DNA from: Kushneria avicenniae
Lineage (GTDB): Bacteria; Pseudomonadota; Gammaproteobacteria; Pseudomonadales; Halomonadaceae
Direction: 5' to 3'
DNA length: 64,000 nt
Assembly (NCBI RefSeq): GCF_900112585.1
Contig: NZ_FOLY01000002.1
Coordinates: 186,001 to 250,000 of the forward strand
This document shows, piece after piece, positions 48,759 to 51,255 of the stretch; position 1 is the first letter of the stretch, and each line of letters begins with the position of its first letter. The notes under the pieces are model-generated. The model did not search any database, was not told the origin of the DNA, and saw only the letters and a program-made list of their open reading frames with translations. Position numbers and translations under genes: made by a program.

Positions 48759-49468
48759 GTCAGTCGCCCATTCTGGTCACCGGAGGCGGGCAGCGACTGG
48801 GCCGATACTGTGCCGAACGCCTGCATGATGATGGCCATCCGGTCATCATTACCTACCGCCGTGAGCGGCCGGCCATCGAAGCGCTGCGGGCCCGGGGCAT
48901 TACCGCGCTGTACGCCGATTTTTCCAGCGAGGCGGGCATTCTGGACTTCGTGGCGCGGCTGAAGGCGCAGACCGGCGCGCTTCGGGCCATCATCCACAAC
49001 GCCTCGCACTGGCAGCGCGATGAGGACAGCCCCTCCTGCGGCGAGGATTTTGCCCTGATGTTTCAGGTTCACATGCAGGCGCCGTATCTCATCAACCTGC
49101 ATGCCCATGCGCTTTTGATGGCCTGCCCGGAGCCGATGCGCGACATCATCCACATTACGGACTACAGCGCCGCGCACGGATCAAGACAGCACATGGCCTA
49201 TGCCGCCACCAAGGCCGGACTTGAAAACCTTGCCCTGTCGATGGCCGGACGCTTTGCGCCCGATATCAAGGTCAACGCCATCGCCCCGGCGGGCATCATG
49301 CTCAACGCCGAGGACGGCGACGATTATCTGGCACATCTCAATCGCCGCTCGGCCCTGCCTGCCGTGCCCGGGCCGAGGGTCATCTGGCAGGGCGTACGCT
49401 ATCTGCTGGATAGTCCTTTTGTCACAGGGGCCACATTGCCTGTTGACGGCGGGCGTCATGTGAAGTGA
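48755..49468 (+). CDS. folM: Dihydromonapterin reductase FolM type (SDR)
   Basis: Short-chain dehydrogenase that reduces dihydromonapterin (and weakly dihydrofolate) with NADPH. 237 residues. The N-terminal cofactor motif is TGGGQRLG, and the catalytic YAATK (Tyr-x3-Lys) lies near residue 150. PVDGGRHVK at the C-terminus is typical of FolM. It overlaps fre by ATGA, so the two are translationally coupled. An alternative is another pteridine-type SDR. Confidence 0.85.
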   Translation: MSQSPILVTGGGQRLGRYCAERLHDDGHPVIITYRRERPAIEALRARGITALYADFSSEAGILDFVARLKAQTGALRAIIHNASHWQRDEDSPSCGEDFALMFQVHMQAPYLINLHAHALLMACPEPMRDIIHITDYSAAHGSRQHMAYAATKAGLENLALSMAGRFAPDIKVNAIAPAGIMLNAEDGDDYLAHLNRRSALPAVPGPRVIWQGVRYLLDSPFVTGATLPVDGGRHVK

Positions 49469-49550
49469 ACTGGCCATGGCGAGCGATTCGCCGGACAACA
49501 ATCACATGTTCAAAACATCGGTGTTTCAACGACCGTGACAGGTGGCCATC

Positions 49551-49676
49551 ATGACATCGCCGTCGACGCTATTGAAGGATCGTGCATTGCTGGTCGGTAT
49601 TGTGGCAGGAGTTGTCATCATATCGCTGGCGGCAGCGCTACCGGCGCTGTTTATATGGAAGGAGTTTGTCATCTGA
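49551..49676 (+). CDS. Small single-span membrane protein (hypothetical)
   Basis: 41-codon frame read directly from the sequence. AGGTGG lies at 49540-49545, five bases before the ATG. The protein is one hydrophobic segment (about residues 12-36, GIVAGVVIISLAAALPALFIW) flanked by a Lys/Asp/Arg-containing N-terminus and a short Lys-Glu tail, the shape of a real mini membrane protein. It lies 82 bases after folM and before the aromatic leader. No family recognised; function unknown. Confidence 0.5.
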   Translation: MTSPSTLLKDRALLVGIVAGVVIISLAAALPALFIWKEFVI

Positions 49677-49700
49677 GCGCGGTATGCTGGTCTCGGATGA

Positions 49701-49730
49701 TTGACTGCGGCGCTTCAGGCGCTGCATCAT
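49701..49730 (+). promoter_or_regulatory. Candidate promoter of the aromatic leader and DAHP synthase gene
   Basis: TTGACT at 49701-49706, an 18-base spacer and CATCAT at 49725-49730. Transcription would begin near 49737, about 27 bases before the leader reading frame. No TyrR-type or TrpR-type operator was recognised around it. Confidence 0.45.
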
Positions 49731-49763
49731 CGAATCAGAAAGTGTTCATCAGGATAACTCGAC

Positions 49764-49889
49764 ATGTTGCAGTCCATGTTCAATGACACGCTGACACCGC
49801 CGGCTCCAAAGGCCGCAGCGGCGTTTTTGTGTGTCCTGAGCATGTCCGGTTATCCCGTGGGCTATTGGTTTAGAGACAGGCACGCCTGA
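49764..49889 (+). CDS. Aromatic leader peptide upstream of DAHP synthase
   Basis: 41-codon frame with AGGA nine bases upstream of its ATG; an internal ATG at 49842 would give a 15-residue peptide, the size of TrpL or PheL, but lacks a good ribosome site. Near its end it has the codons TAT (49851), TAT-TGG-TTT (49863-49871), i.e. Tyr, Tyr, Trp, Phe. The peptide ends MSGYPVGYWFRDRHA. Its TGA stop (49887-49889) lies at the end of the first arm of hairpin 1. This is the layout of a classical attenuator leader. It would sense all three end products of the pathway started by the gene downstream. Confidence 0.72.
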   Translation: MLQSMFNDTLTPPAPKAAAAFLCVLSMSGYPVGYWFRDRHA

Positions 49890-49973
49890 TTTTTCAGGGC
49901 GTGCCGGTACCTACCGTGCTGCCCACCCTCAAAAACCCCGGTTGGCAGCACGCCACCGGGGTTTTTTGTTTTT
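49879..49973 (+). promoter_or_regulatory. Transcription attenuator of the DAHP synthase gene
   Basis: Hairpin 1: GGCACGCCTGA (49879-49889) with TCAGGGCGTGCC (49894-49905), 11 bp, one G bulge, T4 loop. Terminator: A5-CCCCGGT-T-GGC (49931-49946) with GCC-ACCGGGG-T6 (49952-49967), followed by a second T run. Competing pairings: GGCGTGC (49898-49904) with GCACGCC (49948-49954), and CGTGCTGCC (49915-49923) with GGCAGCACG (49944-49952). Both would break the terminator. A ribosome stalled on the Tyr-Trp-Phe codons would cover the first arm of hairpin 1 and free 49898-49904 to act as antiterminator. Confidence 0.75.
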
Positions 49974-50017
49974 CGCGTTACGACAAACGACCCGACAGAC
50001 ATGAGAGGGCGCATCAT

Positions 50018-50146
50018 ATGACCATGACCGATCAATACTATCCGATGGCTGACTGGCGATTTAATCACACGCTGGCGGTGCTTCGAGCGCTGACCGCCGG
50101 CGTGCTGGCACAGGGCGCTCCACACTCCCCCTTGTTACGCTGTTGA
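50018..50146 (+). CDS. Second mini-ORF before DAHP synthase (possible leader peptide)
   Basis: 42-codon frame with AGAGGG at 50004-50009, eight bases before the ATG. Its stop (TGA, 50144-50146) is 17 bases before the DAHP synthase ATG, and the AAGGA that would serve that gene begins within it. Residues 7-15 read YYPMADWRF, so Tyr-Tyr, Trp and Phe are again clustered near the start. GAGCGC and GCGCTC inside the frame can pair around GCCGG/CTGGC, but no T run follows. It may couple translation to the synthase gene; equally, it could be chance. Confidence 0.35.
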   Translation: MTMTDQYYPMADWRFNHTLAVLRALTAGVLAQGAPHSPLLRC

Positions 50147-50163
50147 AGGATAGAAACAACGCC

Positions 50164-51255
50164 ATGAACGCCTTGACCAATATTGCCGAATCCGCCACCA
50201 CGCCTGCCGTGCAGGATGACAACGCCGATGGCCCGAGCGTTGCCCAGCCCCTGCCGGCGCCCGCAGCACTCAAGGAAGCCATCGGGCTCGAGCCCGTCAT
50301 GAAAGCGCAGATCGCCGGACATCGTCAGGCGATCCGGGAGATCCTCGAGGGGCGCGATTCGCGCCTGCTGGTCGTGATGGGGCCCTGTTCCATTCATGAT
50401 CGTGACAGCGCGCTGGACTATGCCAGACGTCTGAAACAGCTGGCCGACGAAGTAGGCGACAGCATGTTGCTGGTCATGCGGGTCTATGTCGAAAAGCCCC
50501 GTACGACCGTGGGCTGGAAGGGGCTGGCGTATGACCCGCACCTCGATGGCAGTGACAACATGGCTGAAGGCCTTGCCAGCACACGTCGACTCATGCGCGA
50601 CATCACCGAGTTGGGACTGCCGATTGCCTGTGAGCTGCTCCAGCCCATGCTGAGCGCCTACATGGATGATCTCATCAGCTGGGCGGCCGTCGGCGCCCGC
50701 ACCACCGAATCCCAGATCCACCGTGAAATGGTCAGTGCCCTGCCCATGCCCACGGGGTTCAAAAACGGCACTGACGGTGGCATTCAGGTCGCCATCGATG
50801 CCATGGGCACCAGCCGCCACGGCCATCGCTATCCGGGTTTTGATGACCAGGGCCGCCCGGCACTTTTGAGATCCCGTGGCAATCCTGATACCCATCTGGT
50901 TCTGCGCGGGGGGCATCATGGCGCCAACTTCGATGACAAAAGCGTCGAAAAGGCAGCTTTTGACCTCAGGGCGGCAGGCGTTTCAAGTGCCATCATGGTG
51001 GACTGTTCCCATGCCAACAGTGGCAAGGACCCCGCTCGGCAGCCGCTGGTACTCAATGAGGTCATTCGCCAGCGTCTCAATGGCATGTCCTCGCTGGTCG
51101 GCGTCATGCTCGAAAGCCATCTGGAAACGGGCAAGCAGCCCCTGGGCGCTGAACTGCGCTATGGCGTTTCCATCACCGATGGCTGTCTGGGCTGGGCGGA
51201 AAGCGAGCATCACATACGTTTTGTGGCGAAGCGGTTATCCGAACAGCCGGTTTGA
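50164..51255 (+). CDS. 3-deoxy-7-phosphoheptulonate synthase (DAHP synthase, class I alpha)
   Basis: Condenses phosphoenolpyruvate and erythrose 4-phosphate, the first step of the shikimate pathway. 363 residues from the ATG at 50164; a TTG at 50143 would add 7. Diagnostic runs: VVMGPCSIHD, RVYVEKPRTTVGWKG, GARTTESQIHREM, KNGTDGG, and the metal/PEP residues in RGGHHGANFD and VDCSHANSGKD. This is the AroF/AroG/AroH type; which end product inhibits the enzyme cannot be decided by eye, so no symbol is given. Expression is probably set by the upstream attenuator. Confidence 0.95.
   Translation: MNALTNIAESATTPAVQDDNADGPSVAQPLPAPAALKEAIGLEPVMKAQIAGHRQAIREILEGRDSRLLVVMGPCSIHDRDSALDYARRLKQLADEVGDSMLLVMRVYVEKPRTTVGWKGLAYDPHLDGSDNMAEGLASTRRLMRDITELGLPIACELLQPMLSAYMDDLISWAAVGARTTESQIHREMVSALPMPTGFKNGTDGGIQVAIDAMGTSRHGHRYPGFDDQGRPALLRSRGNPDTHLVLRGGHHGANFDDKSVEKAAFDLRAAGVSSAIMVDCSHANSGKDPARQPLVLNEVIRQRLNGMSSLVGVMLESHLETGKQPLGAELRYGVSITDGCLGWAESEHHIRFVAKRLSEQPV

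Follow-up and report, generated by a model that had tools for sequence, protein, structure and literature searches.

A conserved, very probable aromatic amino-acid attenuator precedes the DAHP synthase gene in Kushneria avicenniae and its relatives

Organization of the DAHP synthase leader region

We analyzed a 64,000-nt stretch of DNA from Kushneria avicenniae (Halomonadaceae), hereafter the window, and all coordinates are window positions. On the plus strand, an upstream frame ends at 49468 and is followed by a first leader frame (ORF1, 49764-49889), an intrinsic terminator (49936-49967), a second leader frame (ORF2, 50018-50146) and a DAHP synthase gene starting at 50164. A preliminary description, made from the sequence alone, had placed an aromatic amino-acid attenuator in front of this gene; its letters and coordinates were correct on recheck, and the element is a real, conserved aromatic amino-acid attenuator before DAHP synthase. 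The features of the first leader and the regulated gene are as follows:

49684..49701, plus strand: shared block ATGCTrGTCTCGGATGAT, possible promoter region of the leader transcript
49764..49889, plus strand: ORF1, leader peptide 1 (41 aa), ending in SGYPVGYWFRDRHA, from translation; AGGAT lies 8 bases 5'
49851..49853, plus strand: Tyr control codon TAT, read from the sequence
49863..49871, plus strand: Tyr-Trp-Phe control codons TAT TGG TTT; all three residues conserved across loci
49878..49889, plus strand: strand 1, contains the ORF1 stop codon, partner strand 2 (covariation)
49895..49909, plus strand: strand 2, partner strand 1 or strand 3 (covariation)
49912..49927, plus strand: strand 3, forming the anti-antiterminator with strand 2 and the antiterminator with strand 4 (covariation)
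49936..49967, plus strand: intrinsic terminator stem-loop with T6 tail (RNA folding)
49940..49951, plus strand: strand 4, terminator 5' arm and loop, partner strand 3 or strand 5 (covariation of 3:4 and 4:5)
49952..49961, plus strand: strand 5, terminator 3' arm, partner strand 4 (covariation of 4:5)
50164..51255, plus strand: DAHP synthase (aroFGH type), the regulated gene (TIGR00034, 420 bits against a cut-off of 173; PF00793, 240 bits)

The DAHP synthase shares 82% identity with that of Kushneria indalinina, the closest named genome among the matches listed. ORF1 runs from ATG at 49764 to TGA at 49887-49889 and encodes the peptide MLQSMFNDTLTPPAPKAAAAFLCVLSMSGYPVGYWFRDRHA; the AGGAT motif before it is also present in 6 Kushneria-like relatives. 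About 63 bases 5' of ORF1, the block at 49684-49701 is found in the window and 6 Kushneria-like relatives and is absent from the 3 other rows compared. A promoter consensus scan pointed elsewhere, to 49701-49730, and the shared block is perhaps the better promoter candidate of the two.

The preliminary description had read codons for all three aromatic amino acids in the leader frame, and this reading extends to the relatives: Tyr, Trp and Phe all occur in the leader of 202/202 loci, 195 of which were parsed by a pattern that already demands Tyr-Trp and leaves Phe free, giving 179 unique leaders. These loci comprise 120 from Halomonadaceae (including 60 further matches of our covariance model R1, hand-picked to spread over genera) and 82 from outside that family, almost entirely the top Pseudomonas matches listed. 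The three residues fall inside a single stretch of 13 residues in all 179 unique leaders, and the remaining 7 loci, read by eye, contain all three as YWF (3 loci), FWYGYF (2) or YWRWF (2). Adjoining residues vary, as in FFGFSYWYWF, GYWFGYWF and GYFGSYWF.

The codon following Tyr-Trp is TTT in 178 of the 179 unique leaders and TTC in one, and in both leader frames TTT is nearly always followed by A (49869-49872; 50054-50063). The TTT-A motif, together with the CGA codon of ORF2, is notable because GC-rich genomes are expected to prefer TTC and to shun CGA. That TTT and the A after it hardly ever change suggests that more than the encoded amino acid is constrained, and slow decoding or an RNA-level constraint may lie behind this. 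Codon-position rates moderately support coding of both frames: the third position is the most variable one in ORF1 and in all but the last part of ORF2, and the signal is much weaker than in the DAHP synthase gene used as control.

Alternating helices and the computed switch

Downstream of the control codons, an 11-pair hairpin carries the ORF1 stop codon in its 5' arm, as previously reported, and has one bulge. The terminator stem-loop (49936-49961) has 10 pairs, one bulged T and a 5-base loop and is followed by six T; a simple terminator scan over 49400-50400 reported no terminator, presumably because of the bulge, while RNA folding does find it. Between the control codons and the end of the terminator lie five strands, and the conserved antiterminator pairs 49916-49927 of strand 3 with 49940-49951 of strand 4.

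Pairing between strands was assessed by a strand-swap test: the five strands were taken from a single alignment, and each species' strand x was matched with strand y of all the other species. Among 87 unique Halomonadaceae sequences, native partners pair better than swapped ones for all four successive helices (1:2, z -12.5; 2:3, z -12.0; 3:4, z -12.2; 4:5, z -10.8), and no covariation was detected for 1:3, 1:4, 2:4, 2:5, 1:5 or 3:5. The same pattern was obtained with 33 representatives below 75% identity (29 Halomonadaceae and 4 others), for which the z-scores of 1:2, 2:3, 3:4 and 4:5 are -7.9, -6.6, -8.1 and -7.2 and none of the six non-adjacent strand pairs covaries. Over all 140 sequences the four helices reach z -14.0 to -15.4, and 3:5 only z -2.3 (p 0.016); the Pseudomonas-type set alone, whose 53 sequences are much alike, shows weak covariation (z -2.0 to -5.4). 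Across Halomonadaceae, for which the preliminary description had suggested an alignment, the Tyr, Trp and Phe codons are conserved and the helices covary.

We denote as ON the structure made of 1:2 and 3:4 (the antiterminator) and as OFF the structure made of 2:3 and 4:5 (the terminator). Paired cells amount to 86.5% for ON and 87.8% for OFF in alignment A1, and the covariation score of each structure is above all 500 shuffles. Two of five measures for ON were matched by shuffles (123/500 and 50/500), perhaps because Kushneria rows are out of register in A1. When GCC/GGC serves as the anchor for 3:4, each sequence being given its best anchor and the 8 of 87 sequences without one being dropped, a position shows UA as well as CG, or GC as well as UA, across the remaining 79 sequences. 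The covariation of 3:4 and 2:3 marks a mutually exclusive antiterminator under selection. Many Pseudomonas leaders additionally carry a small GAGA...TCTC hairpin in the antiterminator loop, between strands 3 and 4, which may quicken the formation of 3:4.

From this geometry a mechanism can be proposed. The five strands would form a chain of mutually exclusive helices, with the aromatic codons positioned just 5' of strand 1. A ribosome stalled at these codons would let 1:2 form and leave strand 3 free, so that 3:4 could form and transcription read through. With charged tRNAs available, the ribosome would enter strand 1 and melt 1:2, upon which 2:3 would capture strand 3 and the terminator would fold. 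The terminated leader RNA would itself show up as a short RNA.

Partition functions were calculated for transcripts reaching the end of strand 4, with an assumed ribosome footprint of 12 bases past the first A-site base; the groups folded left out leaders whose stop codon lies 27 bases after Tyr. Outside Kushneria, a ribosome with Tyr or Trp in its A site leaves 3:4 at a mean of 9.2-9.7 pairs. Its entry into strand 1 lowers 3:4 to 2.1-2.7 pairs among leaders of the Pseudomonas type (first 25 of 53), to 2.7-4.9 pairs in long-loop Halomonadaceae (first 25) and to 4.5-6.2 pairs in the short class (n=11); with the ribosome at the stop codon it recovers to 5.4 pairs in Pseudomonas-type leaders and 7.7 pairs in the short class. 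No switch was seen in the Kushneria group (6/6) for the same transcript end, 3:4 keeping at least 10.4 pairs throughout. Comparison of the stop codon with the Trp stall gave a lower 3:4 in 44, a higher one in 1 and little change in 42 of 87 Halomonadaceae, and a lower 3:4 in 44/53 non-Halomonadaceae. The prediction for the Phe codon hinges on a base or two of the assumed footprint.

In the window, for a transcript ending at 49949, footprint edges of 49876 and 49879 leave 3:4 with 8.9 pairs; edges of 49888 and 49893 leave it with 2.6-2.8 pairs, and here 2:3 takes about 10.7 pairs (-16.7 kcal/mol). An edge at 49884, or at 49899 with the stop codon in the A site, still leaves 3:4 at 8.8 pairs, and extending the transcript to 49951 makes 3:4 the equilibrium structure whatever the footprint edge. 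In these models, the window shows only a partial switch, whereas that of Pseudomonas and many relatives is clear. At equilibrium, the terminator is favored by the full transcript in every averaged state, and therefore the switch must be kinetic; in Kushneria the decision would have to be a kinetic one, taken with the ribosome inside strand 1. For a transcript that reaches strand 4 and carries no ribosome, the ON fold is predicted. More generally, a leader with its codons 5' of an odd helix chain predicts that loss of leader translation raises readthrough, opposite to trp and his.

Relation to the Rfam RNA P15 and distribution among relatives

The preliminary description had also proposed a search against Rfam. 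The best match of the window is RF00627 (P15) with an E-value of 5e-4, at a score of 28.6 bits that lies under the gathering cut-off of 70; by Rfam's rule the window is not a P15 member. The name P15 reportedly goes back to Livny in 2006. Excerpts of later studies describe the RNA, predicted with Rfam, as overexpressed in a P. fluorescens hfq mutant and of unknown function as of 2017 (PMC5627042), and record a riboswitch suggested for P. aeruginosa P15 in 2008 from synteny with a TPP riboswitch (PMC2527527).

P15 loci over the cut-off and the relatives of the window all precede DAHP synthase and fit one alignment, through UAUUGGYUUAG and the terminator. Read in frame, the P15 consensus gives Tyr-Tyr-Phe-Gly-Tyr-Trp and ends in the same kind of terminator; the Rfam entry differs in being typed as a gene, with a structure line that lacks the alternating strands. 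Alignment and shared position together indicate that P15 is the Pseudomonas form of this leader and that the window locus is homologous to it. When P15 was used to fetch loci without reference to the gene, all 30 (the window among them) contained DAHP synthase, each with a preceding aromatic leader, in agreement with the target gene named in the preliminary description. Twenty loci were scored at Rfam's threshold: 16 pass, all from Pseudomonas, Stutzerimonas or the genome G056, and those below it are three Halomonadaceae and locus L116. Searching 58 relatives with the P15 model gave 40 genomes with a match at E <= 10 and 2 above the cut-off, passes being recorded for G025, from the family of the window (82.3 bits), and for G056 (104.7 bits); because 6 of the 14 control genomes were weakly matched too, a weak score on its own means little. 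The genome of the window contains a second weak P15 match (G000:C10:40969-41085; 20.2 bits, E 0.09), and its second DAHP synthase is without such a leader.

To follow the leader beyond the reach of P15, the covariance model R1 was built from 42 leaders. R1 matches 149/161 family genomes at E <= 1e-6, at one place each and in 20 of 24 genera; the attenuator architecture claimed for the window is kept in these genomes and in Pseudomonas. In 274 class-wide genomes, 32 had a match at E <= 0.01, mostly by chance: among 30 loci fetched, DAHP synthase was contained in the 4 best only (L113-L116, window included), and the strong matches before the gene are those of the window, a congener, G056 (same order) and G227 (another family). 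Eight of the 12 family genomes without an R1 match were inspected. Five of them (G013, G026, G036, G343 and G372) have a single DAHP synthase match each, at 49-52% identity, and the upstream regions of three of these revealed no aromatic leader, one having a terminator-like stretch; G401 and G030 carry divergent candidate leaders and G032 an ORF2-like frame.

Several explanations other than a ribosome-mediated switch of five strands can be weighed against these data. The preliminary description had assumed the four-strand logic of trp and phe, in which strand 1 is covered by the stalled ribosome, leaving strand 2 to pair with the inner part of the terminator (49898-49904 with 49948-49954). The 7-base complementarity does exist, GGCGTGC being the exact complement of GCACGCC, and reaches a mean of -14.6 kcal/mol in Kushneria-like sequences (n=7); its role as antiterminator did not hold up, for the mean is -7.1 in 91 other Halomonadaceae, the pairing shows no covariation (z 0.3 in the 33 representatives, z -0.8 in 98 Halomonadaceae), and within the Kushneria-like group itself 3:4 is stronger (-19.7). 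Moreover the codons lie 5' of strand 1, and given 2:3 and 3:4, masking strand 1 would favor termination on starvation. With five strands found, all four successive helices covarying and the control codons ahead of strand 1, we rejected this scheme, which we regard as improbable. Even less probable is that P15 is a genuine trans-acting small RNA, with the peptide and downstream gene incidental. The Rfam typing as a gene and the overexpression in the hfq mutant speak for it, but a short RNA is also expected from a terminated leader, and the conserved Y/W/F frame, the four alternating helices and the constant place before DAHP synthase are at odds with it. We give hardly any credence to a metabolite-binding riboswitch, to which the proposal from TPP riboswitch synteny would lend some weight: the invariant columns are the aromatic codons, the GCC of strand 3 and the terminator, with no separate core, and the helix letters vary with compensation.

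By far the likeliest reading, in our judgment, is that of a ribosome-mediated transcription attenuator of the DAHP synthase gene, sensing the charged forms of the Tyr, Trp and Phe tRNAs. The leader shows the sequence, the conservation and the covariation of four helices and, in most groups, the computed effect of ribosome position; from these we infer ORF1 translation, termination and amino-acid sensing in the cell. Through this leader, a shortage of any one of these amino acids very probably switches on the first enzyme of their synthesis.

A second leader peptide and comparison with known attenuators

Between the terminator and the gene lies a second frame with aromatic codons, which, like helices 2:3 and 3:4 and the relationship to P15, was absent from the preliminary description. 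Its features are as follows:

50018..50146, plus strand: ORF2, second aromatic leader peptide (42 aa), MTMTDQYYPMADWRFNHTL...LLRC; its stop lies 17 bases 5' of the DAHP synthase ATG
50036..50041, plus strand: Tyr-Tyr codons of ORF2, read from the sequence
50054..50062, plus strand: Trp-Arg-Phe codons TGG CGA TTT of ORF2, near-invariant in copies
50071..50079, plus strand: strand P, partner P' at 50093-50101 (covariation, z -10.5)
50085..50091, plus strand: strand Q, partner Q' at 50114-50120, interleaved with P:P' (covariation)
50093..50101, plus strand: strand P' (covariation)
50114..50120, plus strand: strand Q' (covariation)

ORF2 was accepted as any frame of at least 18 residues with three aromatics in 12, or with WRF, and by this rule it is present at 163 of 179 unique loci, with Trp-Arg-Phe in 156. 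Selection for WRF or WRY gave 157 copies, of which 156 share TGGCGATTTA. The peptide has no Pfam or NCBIfam family above cut-off and the region no Rfam match. In the window, the Phe codon of ORF2 starts 11 bases 5' of strand P, and that of leader 1 starts 10 bases 5' of 1:2. Ribosomal frameshifting at CGA-TTT was also considered: a -1 slip on the ORF2 TTT would run straight into TAA (50062-50064) in the window, and into TAG or TAA in 126/157 copies.

Covariation supports two interleaved helices in ORF2, as in an H-type pseudoknot: P:P' is strongly supported and Q:Q' more weakly, with z -10.5 and z -2.3 (p 0.014), respectively, in 30 representatives, and z -14.5 and z -4.3 in 74 Halomonadaceae. 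Only Q:Q' shows signal in 56 Pseudomonas-type copies (z -3.0, against z -0.7 for P:P'), and one control pair reaches about z -2 in both the Halomonadaceae and the Pseudomonas-type sets. Twenty-six sequences were aligned without gaps: the window plus 25 of the 30 representatives, leaving out L017, L208, L003, L071 and L095. In this alignment 91.1% of cells pair, 11 of 16 pairs have changed on both sides, and none of 500 shuffles, nor any slide, nears the covariation score; in the window the P register is retained with different letters, and the Q register is shifted by two. Perfect interleaved helices are found in 73/77 Halomonadaceae, 3/60 others and 13/138 shuffled sequences, and Pseudomonas ORF2 has a mismatch in P. 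Linkers of the candidate pseudoknot measure 0-2 bases in 74 of 76 matches, but the search admitted only 0-3, and mutually exclusive hairpins would give covariation equal to that of simultaneous P:P' and Q:Q'. Model R2, built on ORF2, matched only the window and a congener in the class sample of 274; it missed G056, whose ORF2 has WRF, and so misses the pseudomonad form. Other sequence features are seen nearby: CGATGTT or CGAACAC recurs between Q' and the aroF Shine-Dalgarno site in many relatives (e.g., L012, L021 and L008), and L038 and other Pseudomonas loci have an extra GC-rich hairpin, without a T run, between the ORF2 stop and the aroF Shine-Dalgarno site.

ORF2 probably provides a further step once the terminator has been passed, and we propose that it holds a second sensor. 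A plain translational-coupling leader, with the gene translated by ribosomes finishing ORF2 and with aromatic codons that take no part in sensing, is a quite plausible alternative for this frame. Among 81 Halomonadaceae, with the gene start chosen by Shine-Dalgarno strength, ORF2 overlaps the start by 4 bases in 10 and ends 2-7 bases 5' of it in 32, and the Shine-Dalgarno site of this near-coupled group is predicted to be paired with Q/P' until the ribosome passes. On the other hand, 67 of 68 other copies, mainly Pseudomonas, stop 41-49 bases before the chosen start, TGG CGA TTT is nearly invariant, and Tyr codons precede it in most copies displayed. Folding of four groups (7, 25, 24 and 25 sequences, groups being cut at 25), restricted to nested structures since pseudoknots are outside the program, showed no influence of a stall at Tyr, Trp or Phe on access to the aroF Shine-Dalgarno site; accessibility increased in the near-coupled group alone, from 0.25-0.29 to about 0.4, and there only once the ribosome was past Q/P'. 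We tentatively put forward, as a possible though somewhat doubtful whole, two aromatic sensors in series: the five-strand attenuator, ON if untranslated, and then an ORF2 ribosome that gates the pseudoknot and translation, with P15 as the terminated product. With its conserved interleaved fold, ORF2 could be a second checkpoint on DAHP synthase.

Related proposals exist in other genera. Shewanella aroF appears as 'Attenuator sensing tyr-tRNA' in a listing that cites an E. coli paper (PMC2659441), and attenuators have been predicted before the DAHP synthase-tyrA operon of Vibrio (PMC1173090). As excerpted, these proposals concern Tyr only or leave the amino acid unspecified, and contain neither a three-residue leader nor a five-strand scheme. 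No account of a three-residue attenuator of DAHP synthase was found in the literature searched, whose coverage takes in few subscription papers; as far as searches of literature and libraries show, the three-residue sensor assigned to P15, the five-strand logic and the second leader are new. Attenuation as proposed here would assign a function to an Rfam RNA recorded as of unknown function, and would place the entry step of aromatic synthesis in many Pseudomonas and Halomonas relatives under a control in which three end products are pooled in one leader. Both leaders bear on the engineering of aromatic compounds in Pseudomonas and Halomonas hosts.

Among classical systems, the trp and pheA attenuators have four strands, codons in strand 1 and one amino acid sensed. 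The leader described here shares with them the codons for end products in a leader peptide before a terminator and differs in its five strands, in codons that end 5' of strand 1, in three amino acids and in the gene controlled. The remark in the preliminary description that classical cases sense one amino acid was too narrow, since ilvGMEDA senses Ile, Val and Leu, and thr senses Thr and Ile; these leaders, like ours, respond to two or three related end products, with other codons and other genes. Closest is the his attenuator of Salmonella and E. coli, an alternating helix chain in which B:C and D:E form the ON state and C:D and E:F the OFF state. Strands 1-5 resemble his B-F more than they resemble trp, with the difference that there is no counterpart of strand A, so that an untranslated leader is predicted to be ON rather than OFF, and with three aromatic residues taking the place of His before a different gene.
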